Source: Strigamia acuminata (lineage: Eukaryota > Arthropoda > Chilopoda > Geophilomorpha > Linotaeniidae). Taken from it: a stretch of DNA of 64,000 nt. The notes under the pieces are model-generated. The model did not search any database. It had not been told where the DNA came from and was given only the letters and a program-made list of their open reading frames with translations. This document shows positions 30,912-63,380 of the stretch, one piece after another. The position numbers and the translations under genes were made by a program. The stretch's first letter is position 1. Every line of letters starts with the position of its first letter. The stretch spans positions 4,898,001 through 4,962,000 of the forward strand of contig OX442322.1 in NCBI GenBank assembly GCA_949358305.1, read 5' to 3'.

Positions 30912-31204
30912 TGTTAGATTTTGATAATAAATGATAACTGGTTTCACTGCACAATCAATCGTGGTATTTATTTGCACTGGGCTCGATTATACTTGTGTGT
31001 TCTGAACACTAATTTAGTAAAGCTTTAAACTCGTTCGTTACAAGATTTGATACAGCTTGTTTACATGTTTTTCGTATCTAAACTTAATGTGTATTGTTAT
31101 ATCGACACGCTACATTGTATTATTTCCTTCGCACGCATTCACTAATTGATTTGATTAACTTTTATGCAAACTAATTTAGGTTATAATTGATTCACAATAC
31201 AACA
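30912..31204 (-). repeat. 3' LTR of CC-LTR element
   Basis: 293 bp, plus-strand tgttagatttt to cacaatacaaca. I saw no difference from 33760-34052. The stop codon of the internal ORF lies inside this LTR, 12 bases from its edge. Confidence 0.95.
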
Positions 31205-33540
31205 GCTCCCCGGAAATCTAGCTGAAAGCTAATTTCCTTTACGTTTCTGTTGTTGATGCTATTGTTGTGTTTGTTTCGGGGTCGTTGTCCCCTGTTGCTG
31301 TTGATACGGACCCCAAGCGTGGTCAAAATTCTGTTGGAATTGGCCTCGATAATCGCTTGGTAGCTGTCCCAAATGTTGCTGTTGCGCTTGCTGTTGTTGT
31401 AGTTGTTGTTGTCATTGTTGGTGCTGTTGTTGTTGTTGTTGTTTCGTTGCTCGTTGATCTCGTTGTTTGTGCAATCCCGATGTGGATGCTCGATGCTCGC
31501 ACGCCTGTACAGCTCGTGTTTGTCGCTCGCGCTTTTGCGCAGTTCGTATCTGTTGGTTGCGCGTTTGCGCATTTCAAATTTGTCGCGTTTGGCGTCCGTC
31601 TTGTCGCTCGAGCGCCCGGTCATTTCGATTTCCTCGTCGACACGTTTGACGGCCGCGGCTTTGTCGCCGAATTCGATTGTCCGGCTGAGGCGTTTGGCCT
31701 CAATCGCACGTTGGGCGACATAAGTCGCGTTTTTCTTCACTTTTATAACACCCGCCACATCCAATTTGTTGCAAATTAATTTATGCAGCATATGTTCAGT
31801 CTTTTGCGGTTTTTTTTTCAAGTTAATTAGCTGCTCAACATCAAAGTTGAGATGCACTTGAAGTCCATCAACCCAAAACTTTTGCTCAGAAATTAGCGGT
31901 CGCTCGATTTCCGCGATCGTTTTGAGCAGGTTTTCCATGTTGAACTGCGTAGCGTTGACTTGGTGCTGGAATTCTGCATACACACGGTCGACTCCCTCTT
32001 GTTGGTCTCTCAATGTCAAACATTGATTCATAATGTCCGTATGCACTTGCTGCAATTTTGCAATAGCAATTTGGTGTTGCAATTCACGATTTTGAGCAAA
32101 CTTTTTACAAACATCCTTGTTCTCTATCTTTCCGAGCTTGTAATGCGGGTACAGATATCTGTTGATGTGTTCTACTAATGCTTGCTTTTCGTTCTGGTAC
32201 TGTGGTGCCGGGTTGGTCGGTGCAGCCTGGGTTTTAAATCTTTTACTGTCGGTATTGCTCTCAGCCTCGTCCTGGCTCCAATCGGGGCATTTTCTTTTAT
32301 TCAGATTTGGAAATTCAAACTGCGTTTGCACACTCGTGTCGAAGCTGGTTCTAGTAATCTGGTTTTGGTGACCCGTAGTCGTCTTTGACTTGTTGTGCAT
32401 GGTCGTCGAATCCGCGCTCATTCTGTGACTGTCTTGCTTTTGACATCCCAACAGATTTTGTATACTCTGCATGCTCGAATCGGCACTCATTCTTTTTCCC
32501 TGCGGTGGAAAACTAGGTGTGCGTTGCCCGTTGTTCGTGCCGAAAATCGAGGTCGTTCCTTCATCCTGAATGTTCAAATCCGTCTTAATTTGTGCGCTTG
32601 AATCCTGTTTCCTTTGTGCTTTCTGTTTGCACGCAAAGAAGTGCGCTATTTCATTCGGTTTCTGTTTCTGCTGTGGATTTGTATTCTTTCTTTGATTCAA
32701 ACTTTCATTCGTTTTTGGAATTGTGTGGTTTTCAAACTCGTCGTCGTCAGAATCAAGCTGAATGCAAGGGATCTCCTTTCTTTCGATTTTCGCCGCTACA
32801 GTGTGTTTTTTCGAAATGGCCAAATCATCTTTTCCTATCACGAGACTGCAATCATTTGAGGTCGCATCTGCTAAGCTTATTCTTGAATTACAGCTACTAT
32901 CAATCAAGTGTTCACTCGTTCCGGGAACTGCAATCGCATTTGTCTTTTTCTGGTTTTTACAAAACAACGAAGCTGCGGTGGTTGTTGCACTTAATGCGTT
33001 TTTCGGCTTGTCGCTTTTCGTTTTGTCGTTTTCCGTCATGTTGGACAATAACAGCGTGTCATATAAGTTTGTTACGGCCATGTTCATTTCGATTGCTGCC
33101 TCCATCATCTTGTGGTCGGTTTGCAGTTTGCTCAGCGACCTGAGCGCGTCTTTGATGCACAATTTCTCTATTCTGCAGTACTCGTCTTGGAATTTCATCA
33201 CGTCGCCCATCAAATTGTTGGTCAAGCTTCGTTCCTCTTTGGCGTGTTCCTGTATGTCATTGCGGATGGTTTTCAACAGTTTGTCCGTCAATTCCTTCTC
33301 GTTGCTCGAGTCCACGTCCTTCTCGCGTTTCAAACCCTTATTCAGTTGCGCCAAGCGATTCGTGTTGTCGTTTTTAAATCCTTCCTCGAGTGCCACGAGG
33401 AATTTCGCTCGTTCGCGTTGCAGCATTCGGTTGTGTTCGGTGCAAACTTGCGCGATTTCCACGAGCAGTTGGTCCCGTTCTTTATGCTTGGAATCCATGG
33501 ACGAACTGAGTTCGTCGCGAATCTGTTCAATCGTGGCCAT
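31192..33540 (-). CDS. Coiled-coil, Asn-rich protein of unknown function carried by an LTR element
   Basis: ORF of 782 codons from the ATG at 33540, chosen because it has a strong initiation context (acgATGGcc). The frame stays open upstream to 33663 without another ATG. I do not recognise the family. The N-terminal third is charged and heptad-like (for example KHKERDQLLVEIAQVCTEH), suggesting a coiled coil. The middle is Ser/Thr/Gln-rich with two MSADS repeats. A second helical part follows (about residues 460-600). Near the C terminus three short repeats of the type KFEMRKRAT / RYELRKSAS / KHELYRRAS precede a run of Asn. There is no CCHC knuckle, DTG, YxDD or DDE motif. It could be a very divergent gag or a captured cellular gene. 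The stop codon is inside the 3' LTR, so coding and LTR sequence have co-evolved. Confidence 0.8.
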   Translation of the reverse strand: MATIEQIRDELSSSMDSKHKERDQLLVEIAQVCTEHNRMLQRERAKFLVALEEGFKNDNTNRLAQLNKGLKREKDVDSSNEKELTDKLLKTIRNDIQEHAKEERSLTNNLMGDVMKFQDEYCRIEKLCIKDALRSLSKLQTDHKMMEAAIEMNMAVTNLYDTLLLSNMTENDKTKSDKPKNALSATTTAASLFCKNQKKTNAIAVPGTSEHLIDSSCNSRISLADATSNDCSLVIGKDDLAISKKHTVAAKIERKEIPCIQLDSDDDEFENHTIPKTNESLNQRKNTNPQQKQKPNEIAHFFACKQKAQRKQDSSAQIKTDLNIQDEGTTSIFGTNNGQRTPSFPPQGKRMSADSSMQSIQNLLGCQKQDSHRMSADSTTMHNKSKTTTGHQNQITRTSFDTSVQTQFEFPNLNKRKCPDWSQDEAESNTDSKRFKTQAAPTNPAPQYQNEKQALVEHINRYLYPHYKLGKIENKDVCKKFAQNRELQHQIAIAKLQQVHTDIMNQCLTLRDQQEGVDRVYAEFQHQVNATQFNMENLLKTIAEIERPLISEQKFWVDGLQVHLNFDVEQLINLKKKPQKTEHMLHKLICNKLDVAGVIKVKKNATYVAQRAIEAKRLSRTIEFGDKAAAVKRVDEEIEMTGRSSDKTDAKRDKFEMRKRATNRYELRKSASDKHELYRRASIEHPHRDCTNNEINEQRNNNNNNSTNNDNNNYNNSKRNSNIWDSYQAIIEANSNRILTTLGVRINSNRGQRPRNKHNNSINNRNVKEISFQLDFRGAVVL

Positions 33541-33744
33541 CGTTTTTTCCTCGTTCGAAATTTGATTCGTTTCAAGCTTCCTAGTTCGTGTTGAAGTTGG
33601 TTTAATCTTTCTAGTAGGCGTTTTCTCTCCATTCACAACGGCATAACCAATGGCCCATCTCAAACGTAATTTTTGGTAAGCTCTCGAATTTTTATGTTGT
33701 AAGGATTAGGGTTACCGCGATAAACAGTGGATTCGATCCGTTTA

Positions 33745-36258: not shown

Positions 36259-36681
36259 TTACTGTAGTAAATCGAGACTCGTCATTCCTCGAATAATTTT
36301 TAAAATTGTATTTTGTCTCAAGTTCAAATTCGCCGCCAAATAGAGCGCGAAGAGGCAAAAAATTCCGCAACAATTCTCTTTCTTAGACGAACAAATCTCT
36401 TTCGTATTGTAATCTATGATGACGTCTTTACCGACGAAATCAATTACTTCTTTTGGAGGAACGTGTCCTAAATTATCGAAGTACATGGCTCTATCATTAC
36501 ACAAATATAAGCTAACCCAGTGAGAGCCCTGGCCCGTCGATGGGTCTAAATTGATAACGAAACTTTCTATTTTCTTTTTATGTTTAGATAGGGGTTTCAA
36601 ACAATCGATGGGCAAGACATTGTTGAAATGTGCAATTTGTAATTTATTTTTTGCCCAGTTGTATACTTCCACGTTGTTCAT
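36259..36681 (-). CDS. Adenain-like cysteine protease
   Basis: 140-aa ORF of the adenovirus-type/Ulp1-like (C5/C48 fold) maturation protease family found in Polintons, where it processes capsid precursors. His54 lies in GSHWVSLYL, Asp69 in MYFDNLGHVPP and the nucleophile Cys105 in ENCCGIFCLF. The spacing fits the family. The Gln usually found seven residues before the Cys is not seen (CSSKKENCCG), so the oxyanion-hole residue may be altered. The ATG at 36681 overlaps the stop codon of the upstream integrase frame by four bases (36678-36681), a compact arrangement that suggests translation from one transcript. Confidence 0.85.
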   Translation of the reverse strand: MNNVEVYNWAKNKLQIAHFNNVLPIDCLKPLSKHKKKIESFVINLDPSTGQGSHWVSLYLCNDRAMYFDNLGHVPPKEVIDFVGKDVIIDYNTKEICSSKKENCCGIFCLFALYLAANLNLRQNTILKIIRGMTSLDLLQ

Positions 36682-37628
36682 TTTTTAATGTCCACGAGTT
36701 CGTCCACCCACGAGTTATGCTTCTGATCGTAGCCTTGCCATTTGACTAGGTACTTAAATGTGCCATCCTTGTTTTTCTTTTTCCTGATTACCTTTTCGAC
36801 CAACATCAAATCTTCTTTGTCGGTTTTGGTTTTTTGTAGTTCCTCTGTGTAAAACGAACCACTTATCGGCTCATTGAGAGAATCGATTAGCTTGTATATT
36901 GGCGGTTCGTACATCGAGTCAACCTTTTCTACCGTAAACAGTTCATCCGTCCAATTTTGAAGGTAGCCTTTGTCAAATATGGATTTCGACTTGGATATGC
37001 GCACTCTGTCACCAACCTTGAATTTAGGCTTGGATGTTGCCGGTGCGGGAAGTAATTTTAATCTGAGCGCCTTTTCGTGCTCGGGAGCCACGTCTTTGGG
37101 TTTCAAGTTTATCGTTCTATGAACCGAAGAATTGTATCGGCTCAACAAATGCGGTAAAACCGACACCCACTTTCTGCTTCCTTTCAAAGTAAAATGTTTA
37201 TACATCAGTTCCTTAAGTGTACGATTGAAACGTTCAACCATACTCGCTTTCAAGATGGAATGTGTAGAAAAATGGTTGATGTCGTTTAACTTCATGAGCG
37301 CCTTGAAATGGGAATTGTAAAATTCTTTGCCCCAATCAGATGCCAAGTTCACCGGCCCTTTATTTCCCGCTTTGACGAGCACCTTTTCGAATGCGGCGAT
37401 TACGTCTTTGCCGGTCTTTGATTTGATGGGTATCGCGTACGCGAATTTCGAGAATGCGTCTATTACCGTTAATAAATACTTGTAGCCTTGATTTTGCCTA
37501 GAAAAGGGAATCATTTCCACCAAGTCAATTTGCCATAAGTCGTTTATTCCAAAAGACACGACCGGACGTCTGACGTAATGCCTGCGTGCCGGTTTATGTA
37601 ATTCAGATACCAGTTGTTCTATATCTTG
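36678..37628 (-). pseudogene. Polinton integrase (rve) with C-terminal chromodomain, start missing
   Basis: DDE integrase of the retroviral superfamily that inserts Polinton DNA. Catalytic Asp in DLWQIDLVEM, Asp in LASDWGKEFYNS, Glu in KASMVERFNRTLK. An SH3-like region follows (KFKVGDRVRISKSKSIFDKGY), and then a chromodomain (VIRKKKNKDGTFKYLVKWQGYDQKHNSW) at the C terminus. There is no ATG. The frame opens directly after a run of 20 A (minus strand, complement of 37632-37651), and the usual N-terminal zinc-binding part is not seen. Either the N terminus was deleted or the ORF is reached by slippage from the upstream PLA2 frame. Everything from the HKPARR segment on is intact. Confidence 0.85.
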
Positions 37629-38132
37629 CAATTTTTTTTTTTTTTTTTTTTAGTCTTATTCCCAGTTTAAGTTTGGTATTGAACGTTGCTTTAATTGCTT
37701 TAGCGGCTAATTTTGTGCTTAAACTGATCGTTGGATCGGCTATGATTAAAACACACGCTTCAATCAACTTTCTATCTGCTTCGTGCCTCGCTTCTAGATT
37801 TTCATTTATGTAAGCAATGTCGTGCAGCTTACACGTTTCGTCCAACGGGTTTATGCCTTTATCGCCTCTAGCTAAACGCTTATCTAATTTTGTGCCCGGG
37901 CCGCAATAGTTGTAGCTGGGGATATGCATTTCGAACGGTAGTTTATTGATTAGCTTATTGAAAAGTCCTTTTCCGGTTGCTGGAGATTTTTTTTTTTTAT
38001 GAACTGATATTTTATTATTCCACATGCGGAACATTTGCCTCTTTTGTAGGCTCTGTTGTTCTTAGTGACTCCCAGTTCCAATGTGCCCGTAGGCGTAACC
38101 TTTCGGCATTTAACGCAAAACATGTTCTTCAT
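37603..38132 (-). pseudogene. Zinc-ribbon plus phospholipase A2-like virion gene, frameshifted
   Basis: Two overlapping minus-strand frames appear to be one gene. The first (38132 down, ATG) encodes a zinc ribbon with FCVKCRK and CSACGI Cys pairs, resembling DUF5679. The second (to 37603) encodes a parvovirus-VP1-like phospholipase A2 domain with YCGPGTKLDKRL (Ca-binding loop) and KLHDIAY (His-Asp catalytic pair). Both frames meet at an 11-base homopolymer (37987-37997), where a one-base slip would join them. In related elements such domains occur together. PLA2 domains help parvoviral particles escape endosomes; that role is only inferred here. The gene is head-to-head with the ATPase gene, 27 bases apart. 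Confidence 0.75.
37632..37651. repeat. T20 homopolymer between PLA2 and integrase frames
   Basis: Twenty consecutive T on the plus strand (A20 on the coding strand). The PLA2 frame reads through it and ends 28 bases beyond it, and the integrase frame opens at its far edge. One base fewer would put the two in the same frame. Confidence 0.95.
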
Positions 38133-38159
38133 CTTTTTTATTTACGGCAATATAAAAAA

Positions 38160-38837
38160 ATGAACGTCATAAATTTTGACACGGGGCATTTGGACAAATG
38201 TGATAAGACGATTTTGCCGAAAAACATAAGATGCATCATGTGTGGCCCTGCCGAATGCGGAAAAACGAATCTGTTGCTAAACTTTCTACATTGGTTACGG
38301 TTCGACAAGCTGATGGTATTTTCTAAAACATTATTTCAACCAAAATACGAACGGTTAAGACGGTTGTTCGAGGATCTAGAATCGGAATTGGGTGTACAGG
38401 TAGCTCATTTCTTCCCGAGCAACGAAGATGTTCCGTCTCCCGAACAACTTTTTGATAAAACCGTGAACAAGTCTATTTTCGTGTTTGACGATGTCATGAC
38501 CGACAAGCAACATAACATTGAGAAGTATTTTGCCCAGGGCCGTCATAGTAACGTAGACTCTTTTTACTTGTGTCAAACTTATTCCCGAATCCCAAAACAG
38601 GTGATAAGAGACAATGCCAATTTAATAATCATGTTCAGACAAGACGAAAGAAACATGAAACACGTTTTCGACAACCATGTTGGAACGGACATGACGTACG
38701 TTTGTTTCAGAGACGTTTGTAAATCATGTTGGGACAATGATACGTTCGGGTTTCTCACGATCGACAAGACCAAGTCTATGTCGAGCGGGAGATATAAAAA
38801 TAAATTTTCCCCATTTTTAAAAAATGAACATGAATAA
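38160..38837 (+). CDS. FtsK/HerA-type DNA packaging ATPase
   Basis: Intact 225-aa ORF, ATG at 38160. Walker A GPAECGKT is at residues 29-36 and a Walker B-like strand with FVFDDV near residue 112. A sensor-like asparagine region follows (RHSNVDSFYLCQTYSRIP), and an arginine-containing segment (MFRQDERNMKH). This is the A32-like genome-packaging ATPase conserved in Polintons, adintoviruses and virophages, slightly short compared with many. It starts the plus-strand structural block and overlaps the next frame by 14 bases. Confidence 0.88.
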   Translation: MNVINFDTGHLDKCDKTILPKNIRCIMCGPAECGKTNLLLNFLHWLRFDKLMVFSKTLFQPKYERLRRLFEDLESELGVQVAHFFPSNEDVPSPEQLFDKTVNKSIFVFDDVMTDKQHNIEKYFAQGRHSNVDSFYLCQTYSRIPKQVIRDNANLIIMFRQDERNMKHVFDNHVGTDMTYVCFRDVCKSCWDNDTFGFLTIDKTKSMSSGRYKNKFSPFLKNEHE

Positions 38838-39946
38838 ACAACAGCGTGGAAATTACGAAAAATTAAAACAGAGCTTGAAAAAAAAGTTTCTGCAAGATAA
38901 GTTAAACAGAGGATCCGAAGATGAAGCGCTCGATGCATTCTTCAAACCGCATTGCATAGCCTGCCGCAGCAGCAGCAGCATCTCCACCCCAACCCATGTC
39001 TTTCAATCCGTCACCTTCCACTATCGTTAAAAGCGAGCCTAAGAAGACAATGTCAAAAATGGATATAGAGACACCCGTCAGAAATTGGGAAAATGCATCC
39101 ATTAAAAGACAGTTCTTACGCCAAAGCTTGTCCTCTAGTCATCGTGGAACTCCTCAAAGTTTAGTTGAACACGATGAAGAGAACAATACATCACTTCGAA
39201 ATGTGGAAGAAGAAGAAGCAAATCTTGGTGACGATGCTGATGCTGATGATGTTTCTGATAAATATCGCACGGAAGTACGTAGAAGTCTCGAATGGAAAAA
39301 GAAAGAAACAGATCCGGAAGACACGTATCAGCAATCTTTTATAGATTATTATTCTGCAAATGCGGGTAATATAGACCGTGTGTTTGAAATCAGATTTGAT
39401 ACTAAAGACTTAAAATTTAAAATAGGAGTCGAAGAAGTTACATTAATCCCGGATCATATTTCTGTAAGAAATAAAACATATAGATTCGATAAAGAATTAA
39501 AGGATTTCCTCTTGAACAAAGTTCCAGCATTGGATCCATATCAGAATCAGAAGGCATTAAATAATTATGCCGACATTCTAATCAAACCTAAAGCATTATT
39601 TAGTAAACATGATCCAGCAACTAATAGGCCAAAATCTTCTAAAGGAGAGAAGTATCTGAAAATGATTAAACCAATTTGGCAACACTACAAAAAACATCAA
39701 GCACAATATCTACAATCGGGCCAAGGTATGAAGAAAACGTTTCGTCTGCACAACTTCGTAGACTATAAGTATTACAATAACCCGGACGAATTAATAGACA
39801 GACTGCGATTGTTACACGCATCACGGGATGCCGGAAACCAATCTCACAACAACGAAATTATAGAAATACTTATGGAACTGAAAGAGGAAAGAGTCCTCGA
39901 TAAAACCAAATTTGAAACCATGCATAAGAAAATTCTCACGAATTAA
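38824..39946 (+). pseudogene. DUF8207-like Polinton protein, frameshifted near its N terminus
   Basis: The first frame (ATG 38824) gives a basic helical N terminus (GNYEKLKQSLKKKFLQDKL...FFKP) and ends out of frame at 39030. The second frame carries the body and its first ATG is 38996. A small insertion and a TAG around 38942-38955 separate the two, next to a (gca)n run. The body has an acidic low-complexity part (EEEEANLGDDADADDVSD) and then the domain seen in Polinton-linked DUF8207 proteins (FEIRFD...KFKIGVEEVTLI...NRPKSSKGEKYLKMIKPIW). The 316-codon second frame is intact to 39946, so a shortened product might still be made. Its role in the particle is unknown. Confidence 0.7.
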
Positions 39947-39955
39947 AAAAACAAC

Positions 39956-40687
39956 ATGTCGATTGTACTGAGTAGCACAAAGACCGATTTTCTCACCACT
40001 TTCTCATCGCCTTTATTACTGGGCGAGGATGAATTTGAATTGGGATTAGTGAGTCTGGAGACTTTTAATTCGATGCCAAATATCACCGAGGATAACAACG
40101 TATTCGTGTATTCGATCGACAAAACGAAAACATCGCTAATCATTACTTTCCCTCCCGGTAGTTATGAACTCGTCGACATTATCGCCCGATTACATACCGA
40201 GATGAAAGCGAGAGATCATTGGGACATGAAAAATGACCTTCCGTTCATCGACATAAAAGAGAATATTAACACTTTGTCCACGACGTTGACGATAAGTCAA
40301 ATCGAATATGCCGTGCATTTCACGCACGAGAATAACATGGCTCATTTATTCGGATTTGAAAAACGCGAATATACGGCCGGAACCAGCGAGTCGGTCAATC
40401 CCGTTAACATTTTTCACATAAACACCGTACTGGTGAATTGCGATTTAATTACTGATTCATACTTGAACGGTGAGGCATCTCCGATTATTTACGCGTTTTT
40501 CCCGAATGTTCCGGCCGGTTTCAAAATAGTCGAAATGCCAAATAATATACTGTACTTGCCGGTAAAAAATCAATCTAAAATTCACGAAGTCAGGATATGG
40601 TTGACCGATCAAGATAGTAAGCCCATCGATCTGAGAGGGGAAGTTTTTACCGCACGGTTCCATTTGAGAAGAAAAACATCCGTTTAA
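39956..40687 (+). CDS. Penton-like minor capsid protein
   Basis: Intact 243-aa ORF (MSIVLSSTKTDFL) resembling the single-jelly-roll minor capsid (penton) protein of Polintons. The best-kept part is C-terminal: IIYAFFPNVPAGFKIVEMP, YLPVKNQSKIHEVRIWLTDQ, then DLRGEVFTARFHL. It forms the vertices of icosahedral particles in related viruses. Directly preceded by aaaaaaacaac and followed after 12 bases by another small ORF. No defect seen. Confidence 0.8.
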   Translation: MSIVLSSTKTDFLTTFSSPLLLGEDEFELGLVSLETFNSMPNITEDNNVFVYSIDKTKTSLIITFPPGSYELVDIIARLHTEMKARDHWDMKNDLPFIDIKENINTLSTTLTISQIEYAVHFTHENNMAHLFGFEKREYTAGTSESVNPVNIFHINTVLVNCDLITDSYLNGEASPIIYAFFPNVPAGFKIVEMPNNILYLPVKNQSKIHEVRIWLTDQDSKPIDLRGEVFTARFHLRRKTSV

Positions 40688-47789: not shown

Positions 47790-48262
47790 TGTTGTTTTCC
47801 GATCCCAAATAGTCCTCCGTACTCATCACGGACATTATTAGTATTTTTCCCAGCATCAAGCTGCTTCCTATATTTATTTAGTCTTTAATTGATTATTTAG
47901 CATTGGGCATAATGCTGCCCGCAGCTTAGTATTATATAAGTTTACCTTTTCCAACACCAGATGGTGTCACTTGTATCTTTCCACAAATCCAAGATGTCAG
48001 CCTGCACGTATGCAGTGCTTTATCATTGCTTTTCATCCAAATGGATTCACATTGTAAGTTTTGCTTTTATTTATTAAATATATGTTATTTTTACACTGCC
48101 TAGTTGTAGTTTAGCTGCAGATAAGCACGTTTTCCACGTGCGGCAGCTCTTTTCTGCTTGCCATTAGCGGCGACGTCGCGCGCCCGCCATTTCGGCCGCG
48201 CATTCGCGTTATTCACGCTTCCACACGGTCGTACAGACCGCCAAGCGCCTCCTCCTCTGCTA
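47790..48262 (+). repeat. 5' LTR of Copia-C
   Basis: Tgttgttttccg to cctctgcta, very close to 62906-63380. It lacks the terminal CA, and the following agggggatttt is not a primer site, suggesting a small deletion or rearrangement at this edge. Confidence 0.9.
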
Positions 48263-52423: not shown

Positions 52424-52427
52424 GTAT

Positions 52428-52932
52428 TGTTACGCGGTGGGCGAGCACGCTGTGAATCAGCTGTCGCCACCTCGCTTCCGTAGTTAATCATTAGAGAATT
52501 CCCCTGAAACTCTCACTAGAGTCCGCCTTAAGCGGATGAGGTAATGACTTTACCTATCACTGAGTAATAGAACGATCGAGCTCTATTTAATGTTTGACAA
52601 GAGCCAAATTGGCACAGAGGTTGTCAGGCAGTTATTGCAGTGGCATCTCGAGGTTTTCCCATCCCAATAGTTATTCATGCTTATTTAGTCTTAGGTTATT
52701 TTTAAGATAGTTTTAGAATTTAGTTTAAGTTAAATTATATTTGTTTTCAGATTGTATTTATGGTTTAATAAACATACTGTTATATTTTAATAATAATACA
52801 ATGAGTCCTCTTCATTTCCTTCTTATTAGCAACACAGTTTAAATGTTAGTTTAACTTAATGCAATTGCAAACCCCCAGTTATAATAAAAAGTATTTACGT
52901 GGTCAAACAGTAGTCAGTCTGGCCACGTAACA
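52428..52932 (+). repeat. 5' LTR of Gypsy-U
   Basis: 505 bp, tgttacgcggtgg to ccacgtaaca. Differences from the 3' LTR seen: cccctgaaac versus cccctaaaac, and gttagtttaac versus gttagtgtaac. Confidence 0.95.
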
Positions 52933-53581
52933 AAGTGGTGGAGATTGCGGTTCTTTCTATTTGAGACCCATTAATTGGCTAAAAGTAGTGAAAAGTAGTA
53001 AAAGTAAAGTGAAATTGGCCAGTTATTTGCTAAAATTAGAAGATCCACTTAAAATCCGTACAAATTTGCATTAAAATTCAGTAAAATTCAAGTGAAACTC
53101 ATATAAAATTTTGAAAAGTTGCAAACTCATTTGCATGAGTGATAAGATTGAAAGGTGACTCATTGTGAAAATTGACCTGGAAAAGGCAATTGTAGTTGAA
53201 TATTTAATTATAGTGCACTAACAAGATTTACATTTTTGAATTTATTAAAGATATTTACCCAAGTTGAATATATAATAAAATGAGGTTGTTTTGGAGATTA
53301 AGAGTGGTGAATATTCAATGTTTGTTTAATGATAAAACTTATATTAATAATGATTCAATTATAGGAAATGTTTTCTTTTTGGTTTATGTAGAAGTTTATG
53401 TTGATTTTGATGATTAATTTTGATTATTTTTCAGAAAATAATAATAATTTTTTTTGTTATTGAAATTTATTTTGAATTAGTGACTAATTGTGATAATTAA
53501 TTGTGCATGAGTTTATTTCAGGTTTAGTGAAAGTTGTGAGTTGCTACAGCGTTTTGTGAATAAAGTGAAGGTATAATTTAA
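52933..53581 (+). other. 5' leader of Gypsy-U
   Basis: A probable primer site starts at TGGTGGAGATTGCGG (52937); I could not name the tRNA. The rest is AT-rich and non-coding. A good 5' splice-site-like sequence (gaag|gtataat) lies at 53570/53571. Confidence 0.6.
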
Positions 53582-53590
53582 GGCTTAACA

Positions 53591-54940
53591 GTGGATCAGC
53601 CAGTTAAGTTATCACAGGCGCAAGTGGATAATCTACTGGACTTGAAGAATCAAGAATTAGAAAGGGAATTAGCAAGGACAGTGGATGATTCCAAGGTAGC
53701 GTGTAGAAAGAGAAAAACAACTTCACAGTCGGAGCCTGAAATAAAGGAGGTTGAACAGAATAATTCCACAGTGGATGATAAAACTGTTTTTGCAACCCCA
53801 TTAAAATTTGCGCAATCAAAGTCTTTTCAATCAGTATTTGAATTATTAACACCAGTAAAATTAAAGGAATCCACATCAAAAGGAACTGTATCCAAGATGG
53901 CGGATCCAACAACAGTTTTAACTGATCTTCTCAAGGGTATTTTGATACAAAAGCGCGAAGTAGTTTGTTATGATACAGAAAAAGGTAACATCGACCAATG
54001 GCTTGTGGCTTATGAAGCTACAATAGCATCAGAGGATGAACGAGTGAAACAATTGCCGTTAGCCCTTAAGACTGACGGACTGGCTTGGTTTGTGGAACAA
54101 TATAAAGCGAATCCAACTTGGACTTGGAAGGAATGGAAGCCACAAATCGAAAAGAAGTTCAGGAAAAGCCAGGAAAATGTATTGAACATTCTTCATTTTA
54201 TGAGGCATACGGAAGGTAAAGCCGATGCATTTATGAAGAAAGTCTTGGCCGAATGTGCTTTTGCGCGACCAGAATTGCCCGAGATGTTGAAGATTAATTA
54301 CATTTTTCAAGGATTGAAGCCCGAAATGCAAAAAATGTTGATTACTGTATTCCCGAAGACTTTGGCGGATATGGAAGAGAGAATTAAGTTATTTGAAAGT
54401 CATAAAATAAAAGATCCAGCAGATGTTCTACTCACGGCGTTTAAAAAAATCGTGGATGAAAAGGTGATCCCGGTAACAGCAGGTAAACTGAGTGGAACTG
54501 TGGGGACCCAACCAACCCACGCTGAATTGTTAGCTGAAGTCGCTGAGTTAAAGCAGCGATTGTTAGAAGCGGAGTCAGTGGATTTGCTGGATGAAGAGTC
54601 AATACTGATACAAAATCAGTGGTATGCTCCAATAAGGAATAGGGGACAGTATAATCAAGGAGGTAGAAGTAGAGGTGGAAGACAAGGCTTTAATCCTAAT
54701 TACAATAATTATAACACTAACAATAGTAATAATTCTAATAACCGTTCATGCGGATGTTATCATCATTTCAGCTGTGAGTTTTATAATCCACCCAGGCAAC
54801 AACAACAACAGCAACAACAGCAACAGGAAAGAGGTGGAAGTAACAGCTGGAAGTGGAATAAAAAGAGGAGAAGAGGTGAAAATCCAGGTGGAAACCCTAA
54901 TCCTCAGGCGCAGACGAAGGACCAGAATCCGAAAAACTAG
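53591..54940 (+). CDS. Gypsy-U gag
   Basis: Frame of 449 codons ending in TAG at 54938. There is no ATG at its head: it is open from 53582, with GTG at 53591, and the first in-frame ATG is 53897 (aagATGGcg, strong context). The charged, Ser/Thr-rich first 102 codons may be translated only if an ATG was lost or initiation is non-AUG. The central part (DQWLVAYEATIASEDERV...WFVEQYKANPTW...KKFRKSQENVLNILHFMRH) has the retrotransposon gag capsid pattern. The C terminus is Arg/Gly/Asn-rich with a Cys/His cluster (CGCYHHFSC) in place of a normal CCHC knuckle and a Gln run. Gag packages the RNA in cytoplasmic particles. Confidence 0.82.
   Translation: MDQPVKLSQAQVDNLLDLKNQELERELARTVDDSKVACRKRKTTSQSEPEIKEVEQNNSTVDDKTVFATPLKFAQSKSFQSVFELLTPVKLKESTSKGTVSKMADPTTVLTDLLKGILIQKREVVCYDTEKGNIDQWLVAYEATIASEDERVKQLPLALKTDGLAWFVEQYKANPTWTWKEWKPQIEKKFRKSQENVLNILHFMRHTEGKADAFMKKVLAECAFARPELPEMLKINYIFQGLKPEMQKMLITVFPKTLADMEERIKLFESHKIKDPADVLLTAFKKIVDEKVIPVTAGKLSGTVGTQPTHAELLAEVAELKQRLLEAESVDLLDEESILIQNQWYAPIRNRGQYNQGGRSRGGRQGFNPNYNNYNTNNSNNSNNRSCGCYHHFSCEFYNPPRQQQQQQQQQQERGGSNSWKWNKKRRRGENPGGNPNPQAQTKDQNPKN
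54931..54937 (+). promoter_or_regulatory. Possible -1 ribosomal frameshift site between gag and pol
   Basis: GAAAAAC lies directly before the gag TAG. The -1 frame is open from here into pol (IIIVDVQVSESLLEIPVIV), so a -1 slip would make Gag-Pol. The heptamer fits the shape G AAA AAC, which is not the strongest class. Confidence 0.5.
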
Positions 54941-57900
54941 TTGGACGGCCACAGAGAAATTGTTGCCACCCAAAGAAAAGGAAAAGACAAAAGAAGAAGA
55001 GTAAGATAATTATAGTTGACGTTCAGGTATCAGAGTCATTGTTGGAAATCCCAGTAATTGTAAAAGAAATGGAAATAAAAGCGGTAATGGATACTGGAGC
55101 CAAACGAAACCTTCTAAGTGAAGAAGTCGCAATAGCCCTTCAATTGGATTATTCACCCAGCCCTAACATTAGGCTACGTGGGATAGGAAAGGATTTGGTA
55201 GTTCCAGTGGGTAAAACAAAAATGAACATTGCAATTGGAAAACTGACCTATAGAGTGGAAGTGTTAATAGTGTCAGGATTTCATCATCAGCTTTTATTGG
55301 GGGATCCATTCATGAGGTCAACGAGAACTGTCGTCGATTATGATTTACAAAAAATCTTTGTGGGCCGGAACAATGTTAGTGGAGTAAAAGAAGCAGTTTT
55401 TCCAATAAACAAAACATTTTCGGACCAGAGTTATGTCGCCAGAGTGATGAAGAATATTTCAATTCCACCAATGCATGAATGCGTTATACCAGTTTATTTA
55501 AATACAAAACTAACCACAGAAATGTTTATGGAACCTCTAGGAAATGTAATAGATAGGTTTGGAATTTTGTGTTGTAAAACATTAACAAATTTTGAGTATG
55601 GTAAAGGAGTTCTGCGTGTGGCTAATCCAACGAACAAATCAGTCTTCTTGAAGGAGAAATCTGCAATTGGTAAGGCGTATTACATCATTGAGATTGGGTT
55701 GTTGGATGAAAAGCAAGTGCATTGCTCTGACTCCTCAACCAAAGCGGTTGAGTTGCCGAATGAAAAGCAAGTGCATTGCTTTGACTTTGACTCCTCAATT
55801 GCTAAAGATAAGATGAACAAAAGCCAACAAGAGCAGATGAAGCAGTTACTTCAAAGGAATCAGGATAGATTTGCAGCCACAGACAAAGACTTAGGTAGAG
55901 TAACAACATTTAAACACAAAATTGATACGGGGGACCATGATCCAATACATTTGCAGCCTTATAGACGTTCAATCGCAGAAAAAGAAGTAGAGGCAGAAGA
56001 GACCAGAAAGTTGCTTGAGATGGGAGTCATTAGGGAGTCAGAAAGTCCATGGAGTGCACCAGTACTACTCATCAAGAAAAGAGACGGTAAATGGAGGTTT
56101 TGTGTCGATTGGAGGAGGTTAAACGCCATCACAAAGAAAATGGTATACCCACTGCCCAGAATTGACGATACATTGGACCAACTGGCAGGGGCCCAGTATT
56201 TTTCGATGATGGATCTTATCCAAGGATATTATCAAGTCGAAATAGATGAACAAGATCGTGAAAAAACAGCGTTTACCACTTCAAGCGGACATTTTGAGTT
56301 TAACGTCCTAGGAATGGGATTATGTAATAGCCCAGCTGCGTTTCAGAAATTGATGAATAAGGTGCTTGGTAATCTCCTTGGTAAGGTCTGTATAGCTTAT
56401 ATTGACGACCTTATAATCTTCTCGAAGACTTTTGATCAGCATCTGGAGGATCTCGATGCTGTCTTCAGCAAGCTGCGTTTGGCAAATCTAAAGGTCAAAT
56501 TGAGTAAGTGCACATTTGGTACTAATACCATCAAATATTTAGGCCACATAGTTGATTCTGATGGAGTGTCACCTGATCCACGGAATTTGGAAAGTGTCGC
56601 CAAATTTCCAAAACCAACGAATTTAAAGCAGTTGAGAGGGTTTTTGGGTTTATGTTCGTATTATCGTAAGTACATTCCAGGATTTGCGGACGTATCAAAA
56701 CCATTAGCCAACTTGACTCGCAAGGATGAAGCTTTTGATTGGGGACCACCACAGGAAACAGCGTTTAAGGCCTTACGAACAGCTTTAGTCACGGTACCAG
56801 TGTTGGCACATCCGAATTTCGCTGAGCCATTCATTGTATCTACGGATGCAAGTGCTTATGGGCTCGGTGCAATTTTGAAGCAACGTATTAACAAGCAAGA
56901 ACATGTGATTTGTTACGCCAGTCGATTGTTAAGTACAGCGGAACAAAATTACAATGCAACCGAAAGAGAATGTTTAGCCATAATATTCGGCATTAACAAG
57001 TACAGACCATATCTCTACGGTAGGAAATTTACAATTGTAACAGACCATTCAGCGTTACAATGGTTGAAAAGCGTAAAGAATCCCAACGGTAGGTTGGCCA
57101 GGTGGAGTTTACAACTGGTAGATTATGACTACGATGTGGTGCACAAGTCAGGCAAGAAGCACACAGATGCAGATGCTCTTAGCCGAATCCAAGAAGAGAG
57201 TGGTGAGGAAGAAAAAGAAATTATTCCCTTATTACTTCTCGAAAAACTCAACTTACCTGTAGAACAGCGTAAGGACGAGAAAATTTTGGAGATCATCACC
57301 GCAATGGAGAACATTGAGCAACTTCCAAGAAACAGGAAACGTCCTTTAAAACAGTTCGTTCTCCTGGATAACACGTTGTTTAGAAAGAAAAGTTACAATT
57401 CTCTAAACATGGAAGGAAACCTTTTAGTAGTACCGCAGCATTTACGTAAGCAAGTGTTAGAAGAAATGCATGACGGGCTCGTAGGTGCTCATCTCGGCCT
57501 AAATAAGACGTGGAAAAGAATTAGAGTAAGATTCTTTTGGCCGAGGATATATAGGGACGTAAGGAATTACGTACTCTCTTGTCCACATTGCGCAGGTAGT
57601 AAGTCCATGACCACTCCACAAAAAGGTTTATTACAACCTTGGTCGACGATTTCAAGACCGTTCGAGAGGATTGGAATAGACACGTTAGGAAGTTTTCCAG
57701 TTTCAAATAGTGGAAATAAATTTGTTTTTGTCATCACTGATTATTTGTCGCGTGCAGTCATCGCTAGAGCGGCTCCAGCATGTACAGCGTTGGAAGCAGC
57801 AAAAACTCTTGTATTCGAGGTAATGCTCAAAGAGGGAAGTCCACGCGAGATACTCAGCAATAAGAGGACGGAGTACAGGAACGAAATGATTAATGAGGTA

Positions 57901-58227
57901 TCAGCACTGTTTAAATCCCAGCACAAATCTACTTCCGGGTACCATCCAAGGACCAACGGATTAACGGAAAGATTCAATGCAACGTTTGCCAAAATGTTGA
58001 CATGTTATACTAATAAAGATCACACGGATTGGGATGAATTTTTACCATTTGTCATTTTCTCCTATAATTCCGGAGTCCATGAAACAACTGGATATACCCC
58101 ATATTATTTGTTGAAAGGTTATGAGGTTGATTTGAATGTGGACGTGAACTTGAACCTCCCTCGAAAGGAATTCACTCTTCGCACTTCTAGATTTATGCGG
58201 GAGATGCGGAAAATTGCCAACGAGTGA
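54941..58227 (+). CDS. Gypsy-U pol (protease, RT, RNase H, integrase)
   Basis: The pol frame is open from the gag stop; 1,062 codons run from 55039. Numbered from 55039: protease DTGAKRNLL about residue 19; RT with FCVDWRRLN about 355, YFSMMDLIQGYYQ, and YIDDLIIF about 453; RNase H STDASAYGLGAIL about 600 and TERECLAIIFG; integrase zinc motif HLGLNKTW...CPHC about 815-852; core Asp in RIGIDTLGSFP about 879 and Glu977 in GLTERFN. The second catalytic Asp is replaced by Asn941 (SNKRTEY where SDRGTEY-like is expected), 35 residues before the Glu. The frame ends at 58227 and the integrase tail continues in another frame. RT looks intact; integrase is probably inactive in this copy. Confidence 0.9.
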
Positions 58228-58780
58228 GAAGAGCAAGAGAAGATTTGATTTGGACAGAATTGTGGTGGAATTCGAACCAGAAGAATTAGTTTACTTGAAA
58301 ACCCCAAATAGGAAAGTAGGGTTAAGCGAAAAACTACTGCCACCGTTTTCTGGACCATATGAAATAGTTAGACGCACAGCGCCAAACGATTATGAAGTAA
58401 GGAATTCATCAGGAAAGAAAACTAGCATTGTCAATGTGGAGCGTTTAAAACCATACAAGCCACGAGAGGAAATTCCAGAAACTATTCTGCAGGATTTACC
58501 ACCAAAGAAAGTAACATTTTCTGATGAAGTGCAAGAAAGTTCGCAAAAAGACGATCAAAATGCGGAAATTGTGAAGAAAGACGAAGCTGATTTAGAACAG
58601 CAAAATCAGTTGCCGAAACCGTCACCAGACGAAAACAAGAAGAATCGGTTGCAGAAACCATCACCAGGTGTCGCAAGTGCCGTAAGTACTGACGCGCATG
58701 CGCGACTACCTGCTGAAAGTGATTTCCGGTCACGCCGACTTCGACAGCAGCCACGCCAGGATTATACTTCGTTTTACTAG
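58214..58780 (+). pseudogene. Gypsy-U integrase C-terminal tail, shifted frame
   Basis: 188 codons that continue the integrase: KSKRRFDLDRIVVEFEPEEL, VYLKTPNRKVGLSEKLLPPF, SGPYEIVRR (GPY/F-type module), then an acidic/Gln-rich tail to 58780. It overlaps the end of pol by 14 bases in a different frame, so a one-base change near 58214-58227 separates them. No programmed shift signal is evident. Confidence 0.75.
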
Positions 58781-59342
58781 CGAAATTCTGACGTGAACGC
58801 AAGTGGATTGCCGTGAACGAAGGAAAAACCTTGTTTTTCGTTGTGTTTTGACGAACAGAGAGCATTTTTTGGTGACAACAGGTATTTTGTAATTGAAATA
58901 TATTGAGATGAACGTGAAGGCGACATGATTGATATTTATTTGGTCGGATTTTTTGAGGTGAACGCAAGTTATTTGCAGTGACCCGAGATTAATTCTGATT
59001 AAACTTTGATTAATTCTATTTATCTGAGCGAAGTTGAAACGTTTTCTTCGCACGATAGACGTAGGATATTTAACATACGCCAAAAGTGATTAAAACGAAA
59101 CGAATCTATCGCCATTTTTCCGACGATTAAAATGACTTAGCACAAATTTTGAAATGTTAGCTTGACATTTAAATTTAAAAATCAATAGAAATAGCTTTGA
59201 ATATTTAATAAAATTGCTTAGAATAATTTGAATATTGTATAAAGTTAAAAGTTTAATGAAATTTAGACAAATTGATTGTATATTATATTGGTCATTGATG
59301 AATTTTAATTAATGAATTTAATTTATTTTCTGCACATATTAG
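58781..59342 (+). other. Spacer before Gypsy-U ORF3, ending in a splice-acceptor-like sequence
   Basis: AT-rich, no ORF recognised. It ends with a pyrimidine-rich tract and cacatattag (AG at 59341-59342), seven bases before the ORF3 ATG. This is what a 3' splice site for a subgenomic ORF3 mRNA would look like. Confidence 0.5.
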
Positions 59343-59348
59343 ACTTAA

Positions 59349-60701
59349 ATGGACGACATGACGGGGAAGTTTAGTAGAATGGATGTGAAAGATAGTTCAG
59401 ACGAGGACGACAACATTTCCGTTTGTTCGGGAGTTTCAACTCAGATGTTTGACTTATACGACAGGCAGTCGGAGTTGGAACACTTGGATGTCTTGGCAGA
59501 GGAGGAAGACATTGCAACTGTTCCCATCAAACCATTGTCCGAACTGGTAACATTTAAGCGACCATTCTCCGAACGTAAAGAACTCGGTGCGCGGCCGAAA
59601 GTATATGACAAGCCCTTGACGCCGAAACAACTTAGCAAGATTGAGCGCCGAAAACGTTGTGAGCAAAGGAGAAGAATGGCGGATACAGCGGAAAAGCGCG
59701 CATTCACGGAAAAGGGACTTCAAGTCATCAAGAACCAGGCTGAGAAGACAGTAACCCGAAATGAGAAGCGTCTTGGAGAACTTAGAGTCGAGCAGCGCTG
59801 TATGACTGAAGAAGTGAAAAAAAAAGGTCTTAAAGGCCTTGATGGACGTCTGGTGTTCGAAGCATGGTTTCGAGCAGCAGATAAGTTACTACAGCATGAG
59901 GCTAAAATTCGTCGCAATATTCAACGAGCAAAGGCACTCGGACGCCGGGAATTTAAATTAGACCCATGTGTGATTTTGCCCAAGGAATTGGTGCTTTATA
60001 GCGTTCGTTTACAAGGAGACCAACAGATGGAGGCGTTGGAAGCGACGGTAGCTTTTAGTTATCGACCAAAGCATGAAACAGCGATCACTATGTCAGATGA
60101 CCCGTCCATAATTATAACCAACAGGGAAATGGCGTCTCTTGGACACCTTGCGCCAGGTGAAAGGGCTTGGGTTCATTCAAGTGTAATTGACCATTATTTG
60201 CGGATGCTCGCAAAATTTAACGAACGAGTATGGGCAGTCAGAGTCGACTTTGTCGAAATGATACTAGACTCTAAGCGGTTCCCAGAAGCGAGGAGATGGA
60301 TGAAGAAAACCCATGACCATTGCGGGAAGTCAATTTGGATACCGGAAATCGATCACTGGCAATTATTCGTGGTCGATTGGACCAAATTTCCAACTCAGGT
60401 AACGTTCTACGATCCGAGTGGGGTTCTGACTTTCAGTTGTACTGCTTGGGAGCGTGTGCATAATTGTATCATTGGAGCTGGAATGGTGTTTCCACGGGGC
60501 TATGAGAAGTGGGACCCGCCCCGCATGCAACAGCTTGACGGTGATAGCTGCGGGCCCACTATCTTATATTTTGCACGGAGGTATATCGAAGATAGGGATA
60601 ATATGCGACATGGCCATCCCATCGATTTGCGCCAGCGTATAGTGTACGAAATTCTACACGAGAAGTTGATCCCATTCGAGAAGGAAGAAAACCAGCCTTA
60701 A
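59349..60701 (+). CDS. Ulp1-like (C48) cysteine protease, third ORF of Gypsy-U
   Basis: Intact 450-aa ORF from ATG 59349. N-terminal half: acidic Ser-rich start, then a long charged helical region (about residues 90-200, for example KIERRKRCEQRRRMADTAEK), probably coiled coil. C-terminal half: Ulp1/SENP-type peptidase. It has WVHSSVIDHYL (about 274), a His336 in PEIDHWQLFVVDW, Asp355 in VTFYDPSG, Gln395 and Cys401 in QQLDGDSCGPTILYFA. The His-Asp-Gln-Cys set and spacing match deubiquitinase-like SUMO proteases, so activity is plausible. No signal peptide or membrane span, so it is not an envelope gene. It lies in the env position between pol and the polypurine tract. Possible roles are desumoylation of host factors or processing of element proteins; both are inference. 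Confidence 0.88.
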   Translation: MDDMTGKFSRMDVKDSSDEDDNISVCSGVSTQMFDLYDRQSELEHLDVLAEEEDIATVPIKPLSELVTFKRPFSERKELGARPKVYDKPLTPKQLSKIERRKRCEQRRRMADTAEKRAFTEKGLQVIKNQAEKTVTRNEKRLGELRVEQRCMTEEVKKKGLKGLDGRLVFEAWFRAADKLLQHEAKIRRNIQRAKALGRREFKLDPCVILPKELVLYSVRLQGDQQMEALEATVAFSYRPKHETAITMSDDPSIIITNREMASLGHLAPGERAWVHSSVIDHYLRMLAKFNERVWAVRVDFVEMILDSKRFPEARRWMKKTHDHCGKSIWIPEIDHWQLFVVDWTKFPTQVTFYDPSGVLTFSCTAWERVHNCIIGAGMVFPRGYEKWDPPRMQQLDGDSCGPTILYFARRYIEDRDNMRHGHPIDLRQRIVYEILHEKLIPFEKEENQP

Positions 60702-61209
60702 TCGGACATTAAGTGTTGTGTGAAATTATTTTTTTTTGTGTATTATTTATTTTTTTATTGTTTTGTCAGTGAAGTGAGCCCAGGTGTACTGGAGCGAGCA
60801 GAGACATTATTATTTTCTTATTATTTGAAGTTGATATTGTTTTTTTTTTTAATTTTGTCATTGTTTTCATTTTCATTCACATTGAATGTAGTGTATATTG
60901 TTTTTTTTTTGAATTATTAGTTTGTATAGAAAATAGGAAAACTGTAAACAAAAAAAATTAATATAAGTGAGAAAAACATCAAAAAGTGTTATCTTTAAAA
61001 AGTGTATTGTGTTGAAATTGACATATCATTTGATTTCATAGTTTGAAATTGTGTTTGATTATTTTATTGTTTGAATTGGAGTGTGAATTATGTAAAAGCA
61101 TGAATAACATGGGAAACAGACTTATAAACATGAATAACATGGTTAGCTAATTGGGTTAATTATTTAGGTATTTTGTTTTCGAGAGTCCGAAAAAGCTAAA
61201 GGAGGGGGC
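60702..61209 (+). other. 3' region of Gypsy-U
   Basis: AT-rich with long T runs and no ORF recognised. A 15-base direct repeat (catgaataacatggg-like) occurs at about 61099 and 61129. Ends in the polypurine tract aaaggagggggc (61198-61209). Confidence 0.6.
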
Positions 61210-61714
61210 TGTTACGCGGTGGGCGAGCACGCTGTGAATCAGCTGTCGCCACCTCGCTTCCGTAGTTAATCATTAGAGAATTCCCCTAAAACTCTCACTA
61301 GAGTCCGCCTTAAGCGGATGAGGTAATGACTTTACCTATCACTGAGTAATAGAACGATCGAGCTCTATTTAATGTTTGACAAGAGCCAAATTGGCACAGA
61401 GGTTGTCAGGCAGTTATTGCAGTGGCATCTCGAGGTTTTCCCATCCCAATAGTTATTCATGCTTATTTAGTCTTAGGTTATTTTTAAGATAGTTTTAGAA
61501 TTTAGTTTAAGTTAAATTATATTTGTTTTCAGATTGTATTTATGGTTTAATAAACATACTGTTATATTTTAATAATAATACAATGAGTCCTCTTCATTTC
61601 CTTCTTATTAGCAACACAGTTTAAATGTTAGTGTAACTTAATGCAATTGCAAACCCCCAGTTATAATAAAAAGTATTTACGTGGTCAAACAGTAGTCAGT
61701 CTGGCCACGTAACA
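61210..61714 (+). repeat. 3' LTR of Gypsy-U
   Basis: 505 bp, partner of 52428-52932. Confidence 0.95.
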
Positions 61715-62705
61715 GTATACATCTACGGGACTTCTGCCGTGATGCTCATCTATGTCGATGACATTGTTTTATTTTACGCAACCGATGGCATCCGGACTCA
61801 TCTAATCGCTCTCATCAGTATCAAATTTGACATTGTAAATTTGGGTCCCATCTCGAAACTCTTAGGCGTTGAGTTCATCCGCACATCAAAAGGGATCTAT
61901 ATCTCTCAAAAGTCATACATCCAAAAGATCCTTAAGAAGTTCGAGATCACACCCGACAAACTCATCAAAGTGCCCGTGACTCCAGGGATTAGCTCGTCAA
62001 AGGGTCAAAAGAGAATTTGCCCGAGTTTCCATACCGTTCGTTGATAGGCTCACTTCTCTTCCTCGCGTCGAGGACACGACCTGACATTCTATATTCAGTT
62101 ATCCTGTTATCCCAGTTCAACAACTGCTATGATCACACCCACATCAAAGCTTTAATGCAGGTGGTTCGCTATGTGGGAAATACCATTGATTATGCCATTG
62201 AACTTTCAAACTGCACTAGTGGACAGCTTTGGGGATATACTGTTGCGTCCTGGGCTACGGACATCACCACGTCATTAAGCTTCGGTGGATATATTGCATA
62301 CATTGGAAATGTCCCCATCGGATGGAGTTGCCGAAAACAAACCAGCGTGGCGTGCTCAACGATGGAAGCGGAATTTGTCGCCCTCGTTGAGTGCGTTCGG
62401 GAGCTGTATTGGTTGGACTATGTTTATAGTTCCGTCCCGATGTTGAATCGATCAACGAAGCCAATAGTGTTCTCCGACGCGCTTTCTTCCATCCAATTCA
62501 CTTCAAATGACGTGGAGAATACAGTAGTAAGACGAAACATATCCGAGTAAAGTTTCATTGGATTCGGGAATGGTACACGGCAGGTGCATTCGAACTGAGA
62601 AAGATTCCTGGACCAATGAATGTAGCAGACATCTTCACCAAATGGTTGGGCTCAACACAACTACGTCTGCTAATCTCTCGGATCTTCAACTTCAACTTAT
62701 CATGA
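61715..62705 (+). pseudogene. Copia-C pol, part after the Gypsy-U insertion
   Basis: Continues the RT frame: VMLIYVDDIVLFYA, LGVEFI. A one-base change near 62010 shifts into the frame 62017-62550 (MPEFPYRSLIGSLLFLASRTRPD) with RNase H. The usual RNase H motif YTDASW reads YTVASW here, so the first catalytic Asp is lost. STMEAEFVALVE is kept. Another small insertion near 62523 shifts the last part (KTKHIRVK, ADIFTKWL equivalents), which ends at TGA 62703. Three defects in about 1 kb make it non-functional. Confidence 0.88.
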
Positions 62706-62905: not shown

Positions 62906-63380
62906 TGTTGTTTTCCGATCCCAAATAGTCCTCCGTACTCATCACGGACATCATTAGTATTTTTCCCAGCATCAAGCTGCTTCCTATATTTATTTAGTCT
63001 TTAATTGATTATTTAGCATTGGGCATAATGCTGCCCGCAGCTTAGTATTATATAAGTTTACCTTTTCCAACACCAGATGGTGTCACTTGTATCTTTCCAC
63101 AAATCCAAGATGTCAGCCTGCACGTATGCAGTGCTTTATCATTGCTTTTCATCCAAATGGATTCACATTGTAAGTTTTGCTTTTATTTATTAAATATATG
63201 TTATTTTTACACTGCCTAGTTGTAGTTTAGCTGCAGATAAGCACGTTTTCCACGTGCGGCAGCTCTTTTCTGCTCGCCATTAGCGGCGACGTCGCGCGCC
63301 CGCCATTTCGGCCGCGCATTCGCGTTATTTACGCTTCCACACGGTCGTACAGACCGCCAAGCGCCTCCTCCTCTGCTACA
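62906..63380 (+). repeat. 3' LTR of Copia-C
   Basis: 475 bp, tgttgttttccg to ctctgctaca, followed by the target duplication ctctc. Confidence 0.92.

Follow-up and report, generated by a model that had tools for sequence, protein, structure and literature searches.

The window analysed here, a stretch of 64 kb, contains a Ty3/gypsy LTR retrotransposon 9.29 kb in length (52428-61714) that interrupts the pol frame of a copia element. GTAT target site duplications (TSDs) flank it on the left (52424-52427) and on the right (61715-61718), as read from the sequence, and comparison of its ends defines two 505-bp LTRs of the form TGTTACG...CGTAACA (5' LTR, 52428-52932; 3' LTR, 61210-61714). All coding features of the element lie on the forward strand. 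A gag open frame of 452 codons (53582-54937) overlaps by 37 nt with a pol open frame (54901-58224) encoding protease, reverse transcriptase (RT), RNase H and integrase, in that order. The pol frame is -1 relative to gag, and the same relation is present in three relatives that were read over 10 kb (one each of families B, C and D, see below). The C-terminal part of the integrase (Integrase_p58_C) lies at 58154-58777. An AT-rich spacer of 568 bp (58781-59348, GC 29.5%) then separates pol from a third open reading frame (ORF3, 59349-60701), whose product of 450 amino acids has an acidic N-terminus, a basic middle and a C48/SENP-like protease domain (residues 248-441). The ORF3 stop is followed after 508 bp by the 3' LTR, which adjoins a polypurine tract (61198-61209, sequence read). 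The spacer holds two 31-nt direct repeats (58786-58816 and 58951-58981, 81% identical), a possible regulatory motif. A longer direct repeat outside the element (48000-48262 and 63116-63378, 99% identical) possibly represents LTR parts of the interrupted copia element. No tRNA genes were found in the window.

The closest solved relative of the pol product is Ty3 Gag-Pol (E 4.2e-112). Paired LTRs, TG..CA ends and a target duplication were found in the window element and in three other copies. An earlier note on this DNA had called the element young, and the LTRs bear this out with 2 differences in 505 bp. The pol of this copy changes frame between 58154 and 58224, so that the integrase end stands in a different frame from the rest of pol. 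In the relatives from B, C and D the integrase end lies within the pol frame, and the frame of the window copy is therefore considered broken. Its integrase triad also carries a substitution at one acidic position, by comparison with the Ty3 and PFV integrases and with three relatives. The window copy is young, but for these two reasons probably non-autonomous.

Other features of the window were noted as well. Pieces of the pol of another gypsy element occupy 17988-19012 in two frames and are 38-46% identical to the pol described above. An 823-codon open frame without a Pfam match above cut-off lies on the minus strand at 31192-33663. The remains of a Polinton/Maverick-like element (36259-40687) include an integrase with a chromodomain, a phospholipase A2-like ORF, a packaging-type ATPase (Pox_A32 match) and two ORFs that score above no Pfam cut-off. 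A 140-aa ORF of these remains (36259-36681, minus strand) weakly matches the asfarvirus protease S273R (E 0.0067). It was considered as a source of ORF3 and rejected, there being no significant similarity between the two by BLASTP or phmmer.

ORF3 starts with ATG, and an in-frame stop lies immediately 5' of it (59346-59348). The chance of an open frame as long as this is approximately 2e-12 in random DNA of the same base composition. A splice acceptor beside the ATG ranks only 32 of 636 by a home-made score. The earlier note had placed a 450-codon ORF at these coordinates in a Ty3/gypsy element and had assigned H336, D355, Q395 and C401 to it; all of this was confirmed. Alignment to SENP1 puts the protease domain at 60090-60671. 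Within it are Trp274 (60168-60170), the catalytic His336 (60354-60356), Asp355 (60411-60413) and Cys401 (60549-60551), and Gln395 at the oxyanion-hole position (60531-60533). These five residues, together with W337, S400 and G402, are invariant in an alignment of 41 intact ORF3 copies from the genome, and the H-D-Q-C catalytic order of peptidase family C48 is present in all 41. The description of the window ORF as "intact" may be too strong, as its product has 450 residues against 453 in the other intact frames of its family. The three missing residues fall shortly before the catalytic His336 in an alignment with three other copies of that family.

The assignment to C48, likewise made in the earlier note, depends on the method used. 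The Pfam profile (PF02902) gives the window protein 12.3 bits (E 0.16), below the cut-off of 20.7, so that the profile search suggested in the earlier note would by itself have failed. With an E limit of 1, the same profile matches 12 of 15 ORF3 relatives, the best of them at 8.6e-4, and two other copies pass the cut-off in a genome scan (C13:4705981 and C3:1992208). Sequence searches of the PDB support the assignment: the window protein matches SENP1 over residues 248-441 (4e-8), the protease domain alone does so at 1.6e-8, and a profile of the 15 family members finds SENP1 (2.7e-11) and SENP5 (3.1e-8), then SENP2 and SENP3, followed by yeast Ulp1 (4.7e-5) and, weakly, XopD (3.3e-3). The resemblance to the solved SENP/Ulp1 proteins extends over the whole protease domain. 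No adenovirus or asfarvirus protease is among the 16 matches of the profile at E up to 0.01. For the N-terminal 229 residues, neither the PDB nor Pfam gave a match up to E 1. Residues 1-60 are acidic (17 D+E against 4 K+R) and residues 92-200 are basic (33 K+R against 15 D+E). Single-sequence AlphaFold2 models, made without an alignment of relatives, gave no confident fold (pLDDT 39 and 37). Searches of viral, prokaryotic, phage and plasmid collections returned no relative of ORF3. Although ORF3 sits where errantiviruses carry env, an identity as env was rejected: the product is a protease homologue, not a fusion glycoprotein.

From its sequence the ORF3 product likely cleaves SUMO or a related modifier. 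A WLND motif includes an Asp that we take to be a SUMO contact; 19 of the 41 copies retain this Asp (all 13 of family C and 6 of family D), and it is replaced in the other 22 (all 12 of family A and 10 of family B). Because it is replaced in A and B, some families may act on a modifier other than SUMO, and the substrates may differ between families.

The genome to which the window belongs (237.5 Mb) was searched with ORF3. This yielded at least 96 matches (94 of 444 candidates scored), some of which are two pieces of one copy, and so answered the earlier call to look for other copies. By hand count among the matches listed, 82 of the 96 have no stop, and 66 of the 74 that span residue 1 to at least 445 are stop-free. 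The long matches fall into four families by rough identity to the window ORF3: A (92-96%), to which the window element belongs, B (47-56%), C (40-43%) and D (38-42%). Fifty loci were fetched and the 41 intact frames aligned; the nine left out have stops (L006, L016) or are partial (L014, L015, L017, L022, L029, L030, L044). Pol or the end of the integrase lies upstream of ORF3 in 44 of the 50 loci; four have none (L015, L020, L030, L047) and two have a weak match alone (L049, L050). Downstream of the family C ORF3 of L040 lies an antisense piece of a family-A-like ORF3 (4044-4220, minus strand; residues 373-431, 92% identical).

One 10-kb stretch was read for each of families B, C and D. All three have the order LTR-gag-pol-ORF3-LTR with gag, pol and ORF3 open. 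Their LTRs are identical over 512 bp (B), 503 bp (C) and at least 192 bp (D, where the stretch ends). Identity to the window element in these single copies is 81%, 79% and 70% for pol (B, C and D respectively), 62%, 54% and 34% for gag, and 47%, 40% and 38% for ORF3. By these comparisons ORF3 diverges faster than pol and in a somewhat gag-like manner. Such divergence would fit a partnership with Gag, and ORF3 might accordingly be a particle protein that cuts Gag or another structural protein at assembly or uncoating, in addition to the aspartic protease of Pol. Adenovirus and asfarvirus cysteine proteases of the same clan do such cutting in DNA viruses. Particles could also be complemented in trans, which makes a particle role compatible with the losses of ORF3 described below. 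It is nevertheless unlikely: the profile matches are SENPs, Ulp1 and XopD rather than the proteases of those viruses, an aspartic protease is already present in Pol, and ORF3 is a separate ORF downstream of pol.

The earlier note had pointed to the open state of ORF3 beside a mutated pol. Both halves of the observation hold, but they say little in so young a copy, and the real evidence is the ratio of nonsynonymous to synonymous change (dN/dS), which that note had proposed to measure. We calculated it for within-family pairs with dS between 0.05 and 1.0, the remaining pairs being too similar or saturated, among 40 of the 41 intact copies (L047 was left out); the pairs share history and are not independent. 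Median dN/dS is low in every family and comparable to that of the neighbouring part of the integrase. It is 0.063 for ORF3 (55 of 66 pairs) and 0.069 for the C-terminal segment of the integrase (59 pairs) in family A, 0.141 (6 of 45 pairs) and 0.137 (17 pairs) in B, 0.063 (64 of 78 pairs) and 0.042 (60 pairs) in C, and 0.115 (4 of 10 pairs) and 0.067 (3 pairs) in D. A single pair of low divergence is higher (L018/L019, 0.39 at dS 0.017). Synonymous sites are saturated between families. For 16 copies, in which D is represented by three of one subtype (L045, L046 and L048), an ORF3 tree and a tree of the integrase end both group A, B, C and D; their deeper order differs or is unresolved, and long branches are flagged. 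The agreement is consistent with shared descent of ORF3 and integrase, with exchange between families possible.

The base composition of ORF3 hints at a separate origin, with a GC content of 0.47 against 0.40 in gag and pol and a GC3 of 0.48 against 0.365-0.395. It could be taken to mean that a fragment of a host SENP gene rides as a passenger in one or a few copies, which was also the alternative raised in the earlier note. The number of matches and of stop-free frames, the four diverged families, the invariant residues and the low dN/dS contradict this and refute it for this genome, so we regard it as extremely improbable. Because ORF3 is present in many copies and in four families, has low dN/dS and is carried by recent insertions of B, C and D, it is best viewed as a working gene of the family and not a stray capture. 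That it is a conserved, functional, SENP-like gene of these elements is, judging from these comparisons, very probable.

ORF3 could in principle belong to a DNA transposon of the MULE or Ginger type nested inside the gypsy element. The genome does contain MULE transposases with a fused C48 domain (L057 and L058 on C1, with 6 and 9 matches of equal frame length, respectively, among the matches listed; a PHD finger match in L057 falls slightly short of its cut-off), so that this genome has additional kinds of transposon that carry Ulp1. However, neither protein is a significant match to the ORF3 profile (L057, E 0.16; L058, not below 1), inverted arms around ORF3 are not above chance (best score 8, median of shuffles 10) and the position of ORF3 is constant in four families, which leaves nesting with hardly any probability. 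A Kaonashi-type MULE identity for the element was rejected as well, there being no MULE match among the four element ORFs scanned. The same applies to Ginger1: the element has LTRs and RT, a separate ORF3 and no inverted arms around it. An open frame of more than 1300 codons noticed elsewhere (L059, C1:22249000-22253500) has a C48 domain and, at E up to 0.001, matches no other Pfam family; its frame length is shared by two matches among the matches listed.

Loci collected by their ORF3 are unfit to gauge how often ORF3 is absent. An integrase search of the genome was therefore used instead (150 of 4573 candidates scored), and an ORF3 match was sought up to 4 kb downstream. Among the matches listed, ORF3 is found near 17 of 45 integrases of at least 89% identity (family A) and not near the other 28, near 12 of 51 at 82-88%, near 29 of 36 at 81% and near 0 of 18 at 80%; these counts of ORF3 are lower bounds ("at least"), and for this reason or through a nested insertion a copy could also be scored as lacking it. 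The earlier question of whether ORF3 is fixed in its family thus has a divided answer: family A retains the gene in part of its copies, and copies without it exist. The 80% band appears to be a related gypsy family that lost ORF3 early or never had it.

Six loci scored as lacking ORF3, which are not a random sample, were read (3 of the 28 in family A, 2 of the 39 in the 82-88% band and 1 of the 18 in the 80% band). L051 and L052 lack ORF3 and share one junction. L053 keeps residues 404-450 alone. L055 and L056, of family B, keep approximately the last 48 residues and again share one junction. The copy from the 80% group (L054) shows no trace of ORF3. Because remnants persist, L053 and L055/L056 are read as certain deletions, while in L051/L052 loss would be the parsimonious reading, as all four families have ORF3 in one and the same position. 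Inspected by eye, the junctions of L053 and L055/L056 show no GT..AG ends and share a few bases, like simple deletions, which counts against loss through retro-copying of a spliced RNA.

The copies without ORF3 have moved recently. LTR pairs were compared for three of the five A and B copies with ORF3 absent or truncated, and are 99.8-100% identical (L051, 518/519; L053, 507/507; L055, 514/514), and those of L053 are 98% identical to the LTRs of the window element. Their target duplications are ATAC (L051) and ATAT (L053 and L055). With GTAT of the window element, all four duplications read fit RTAY, a regularity that would suit a role in integration. In that case ORF3 would trim SUMO or ubiquitin from the integrase or from target chromatin proteins, or would do so during DNA repair. 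Such a role has been proposed for the Ulp1 and OTU domains of Ginger1 transposases (in the portion of PMC2836005 available), and the order integrase-Ulp1 is common to Ginger1 and the gypsy elements with ORF3. Against it, three copies without ORF3 likewise produced 4-bp duplications of this type on insertion, and ORF3 and integrase are unfused. We consider it quite improbable.

Because copies that lack ORF3 have near-identical LTRs, and hence inserted recently, ORF3 is dispensable in cis for transposition, yet it is constrained where it is kept. This combination is expected of a shared, diffusible product that acts in trans, although the losses could alternatively mean that the benefit of ORF3 is weak. 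That the product acts in trans on conjugates of ubiquitin-like modifiers we judge to be rather probable.

The explanation that we prefer is as follows, and as a whole we give it an even chance of being correct. ORF3 is a constitutive third gene of a Ty3/gypsy clade, probably acquired once before the families split, and encodes a SENP/Ulp1-like cysteine protease. In trans, its product would remove SUMO, or a different ubiquitin-like modifier, from proteins of the host or of the element, and this removal would raise the expression or spread of the element. Since the product would be shared, copies without ORF3 could still be mobilised while relatives bearing it remain. Candidate targets are silencing factors, Gag and integrase, and the likeliest would be SUMO-dependent transcriptional repression. 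Silencing factors are favoured because SUMO depletion derepresses transposons in the fly ovary (in the part of PMC7676866 consulted) and because KIU genes, which are Ulp1-bearing VANC genes of plant Vandal MULEs, release related copies from silencing in trans and cause their hypomethylation, the role of the Ulp1 part being stated as unknown in the portion of PMC13317346 available. More desumoylation need not mean less silencing, however, since in yeast the transcription of Ty1 is restricted by Ulp1 anchored at the nuclear pore (PMC8585004, in part) and knock-down of Ulp1 in flies raised R1 and R2 (PMC7676866, in part). An anti-silencing function for ORF3 is accordingly a tentative proposal.

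A broader reading is one that we put forward with still more reserve. In it the gene encodes a trans-acting protease of ubiquitin-like modifiers that counters silencing or boosts expression, of which it would be the first example from an LTR retrotransposon, and the clade forms a system of producers and cheaters. Copies with ORF3 would supply the enzyme under strong selection; lineages without it would ride along and, in family A, would be at least as common as those with it. If this reading is true, a gypsy element with an integrase followed by Ulp1 also becomes a candidate source of the integrase-Ulp1 pair of Ginger1. Whichever reading holds, close relatives with and without ORF3 have recently moved in one genome and constitute a natural experiment. 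The case also shows that a gypsy element can carry something other than env as its third gene. The acquisition of Ulp1 domains by several kinds of transposons suggests that control over SUMO and similar tags is important to mobile DNA.

In the parts of open-access papers covered, no LTR retrotransposon with an Ulp1-type ORF3 was found. As a third gene of a gypsy clade ORF3 is apparently undescribed, although Repbase or subscription papers may contain an unremarked family. The earlier note had named MULEs as carriers of Ulp1 domains, which is correct but incomplete: Mutator elements carry the domains, as does Ginger1, where they stand beside a Gypsy-like integrase (PMC2836005, in part), and they are present too in the nematode non-LTR elements NeSL and Utopia (PMC4640811, in part).

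The element shares with other Ty3/gypsy elements (Metaviridae) its LTRs, TG..CA ends, 4-bp duplication, gag, the domain order PR-RT-RNaseH-INT and an H2C2 zinc finger, and differs in the Ulp1/SENP-like ORF3 between pol and the 3' LTR. The protease domain and catalytic residues of ORF3 are those of SENP1/Ulp1 (PDB 6nnq, 2ckg, 1euv), although the relationship is distant and the N-terminal 229 residues are without a match there. The LTR elements of bdelloid rotifers also have an enzymatic third ORF that some families carry and others lack, but the enzymes are a GDSL esterase/lipase and a DEDDy exonuclease, and Ulp1, C48 and cysteine protease do not appear in the main text of that report (PMC5408684). 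NeSL and Utopia-1_TSP are retrotransposons with an Ulp1-like cysteine protease; unlike the element described here they are non-LTR elements with the protease N-terminal in the RT protein (PMC4640811, in part). KIU/Kaonashi of Vandal MULEs is likewise a conserved Ulp1 protein borne by a transposon, with a trans effect on related copies that would parallel the putative trans action of ORF3, but it belongs to a plant DNA transposon in which the function of the Ulp1 part is given as unknown (PMC13317346, in part). Ginger1 has the same succession of a Gypsy-like integrase, there with a GPY/F motif, and an Ulp1 domain, for which its authors suggest a role in DNA repair; it is a cut-and-paste DNA transposon with inverted ends, and its Ulp1 is fused to the transposase (PMC2836005, in part), whereas in the gypsy elements ORF3 is a gene of its own.
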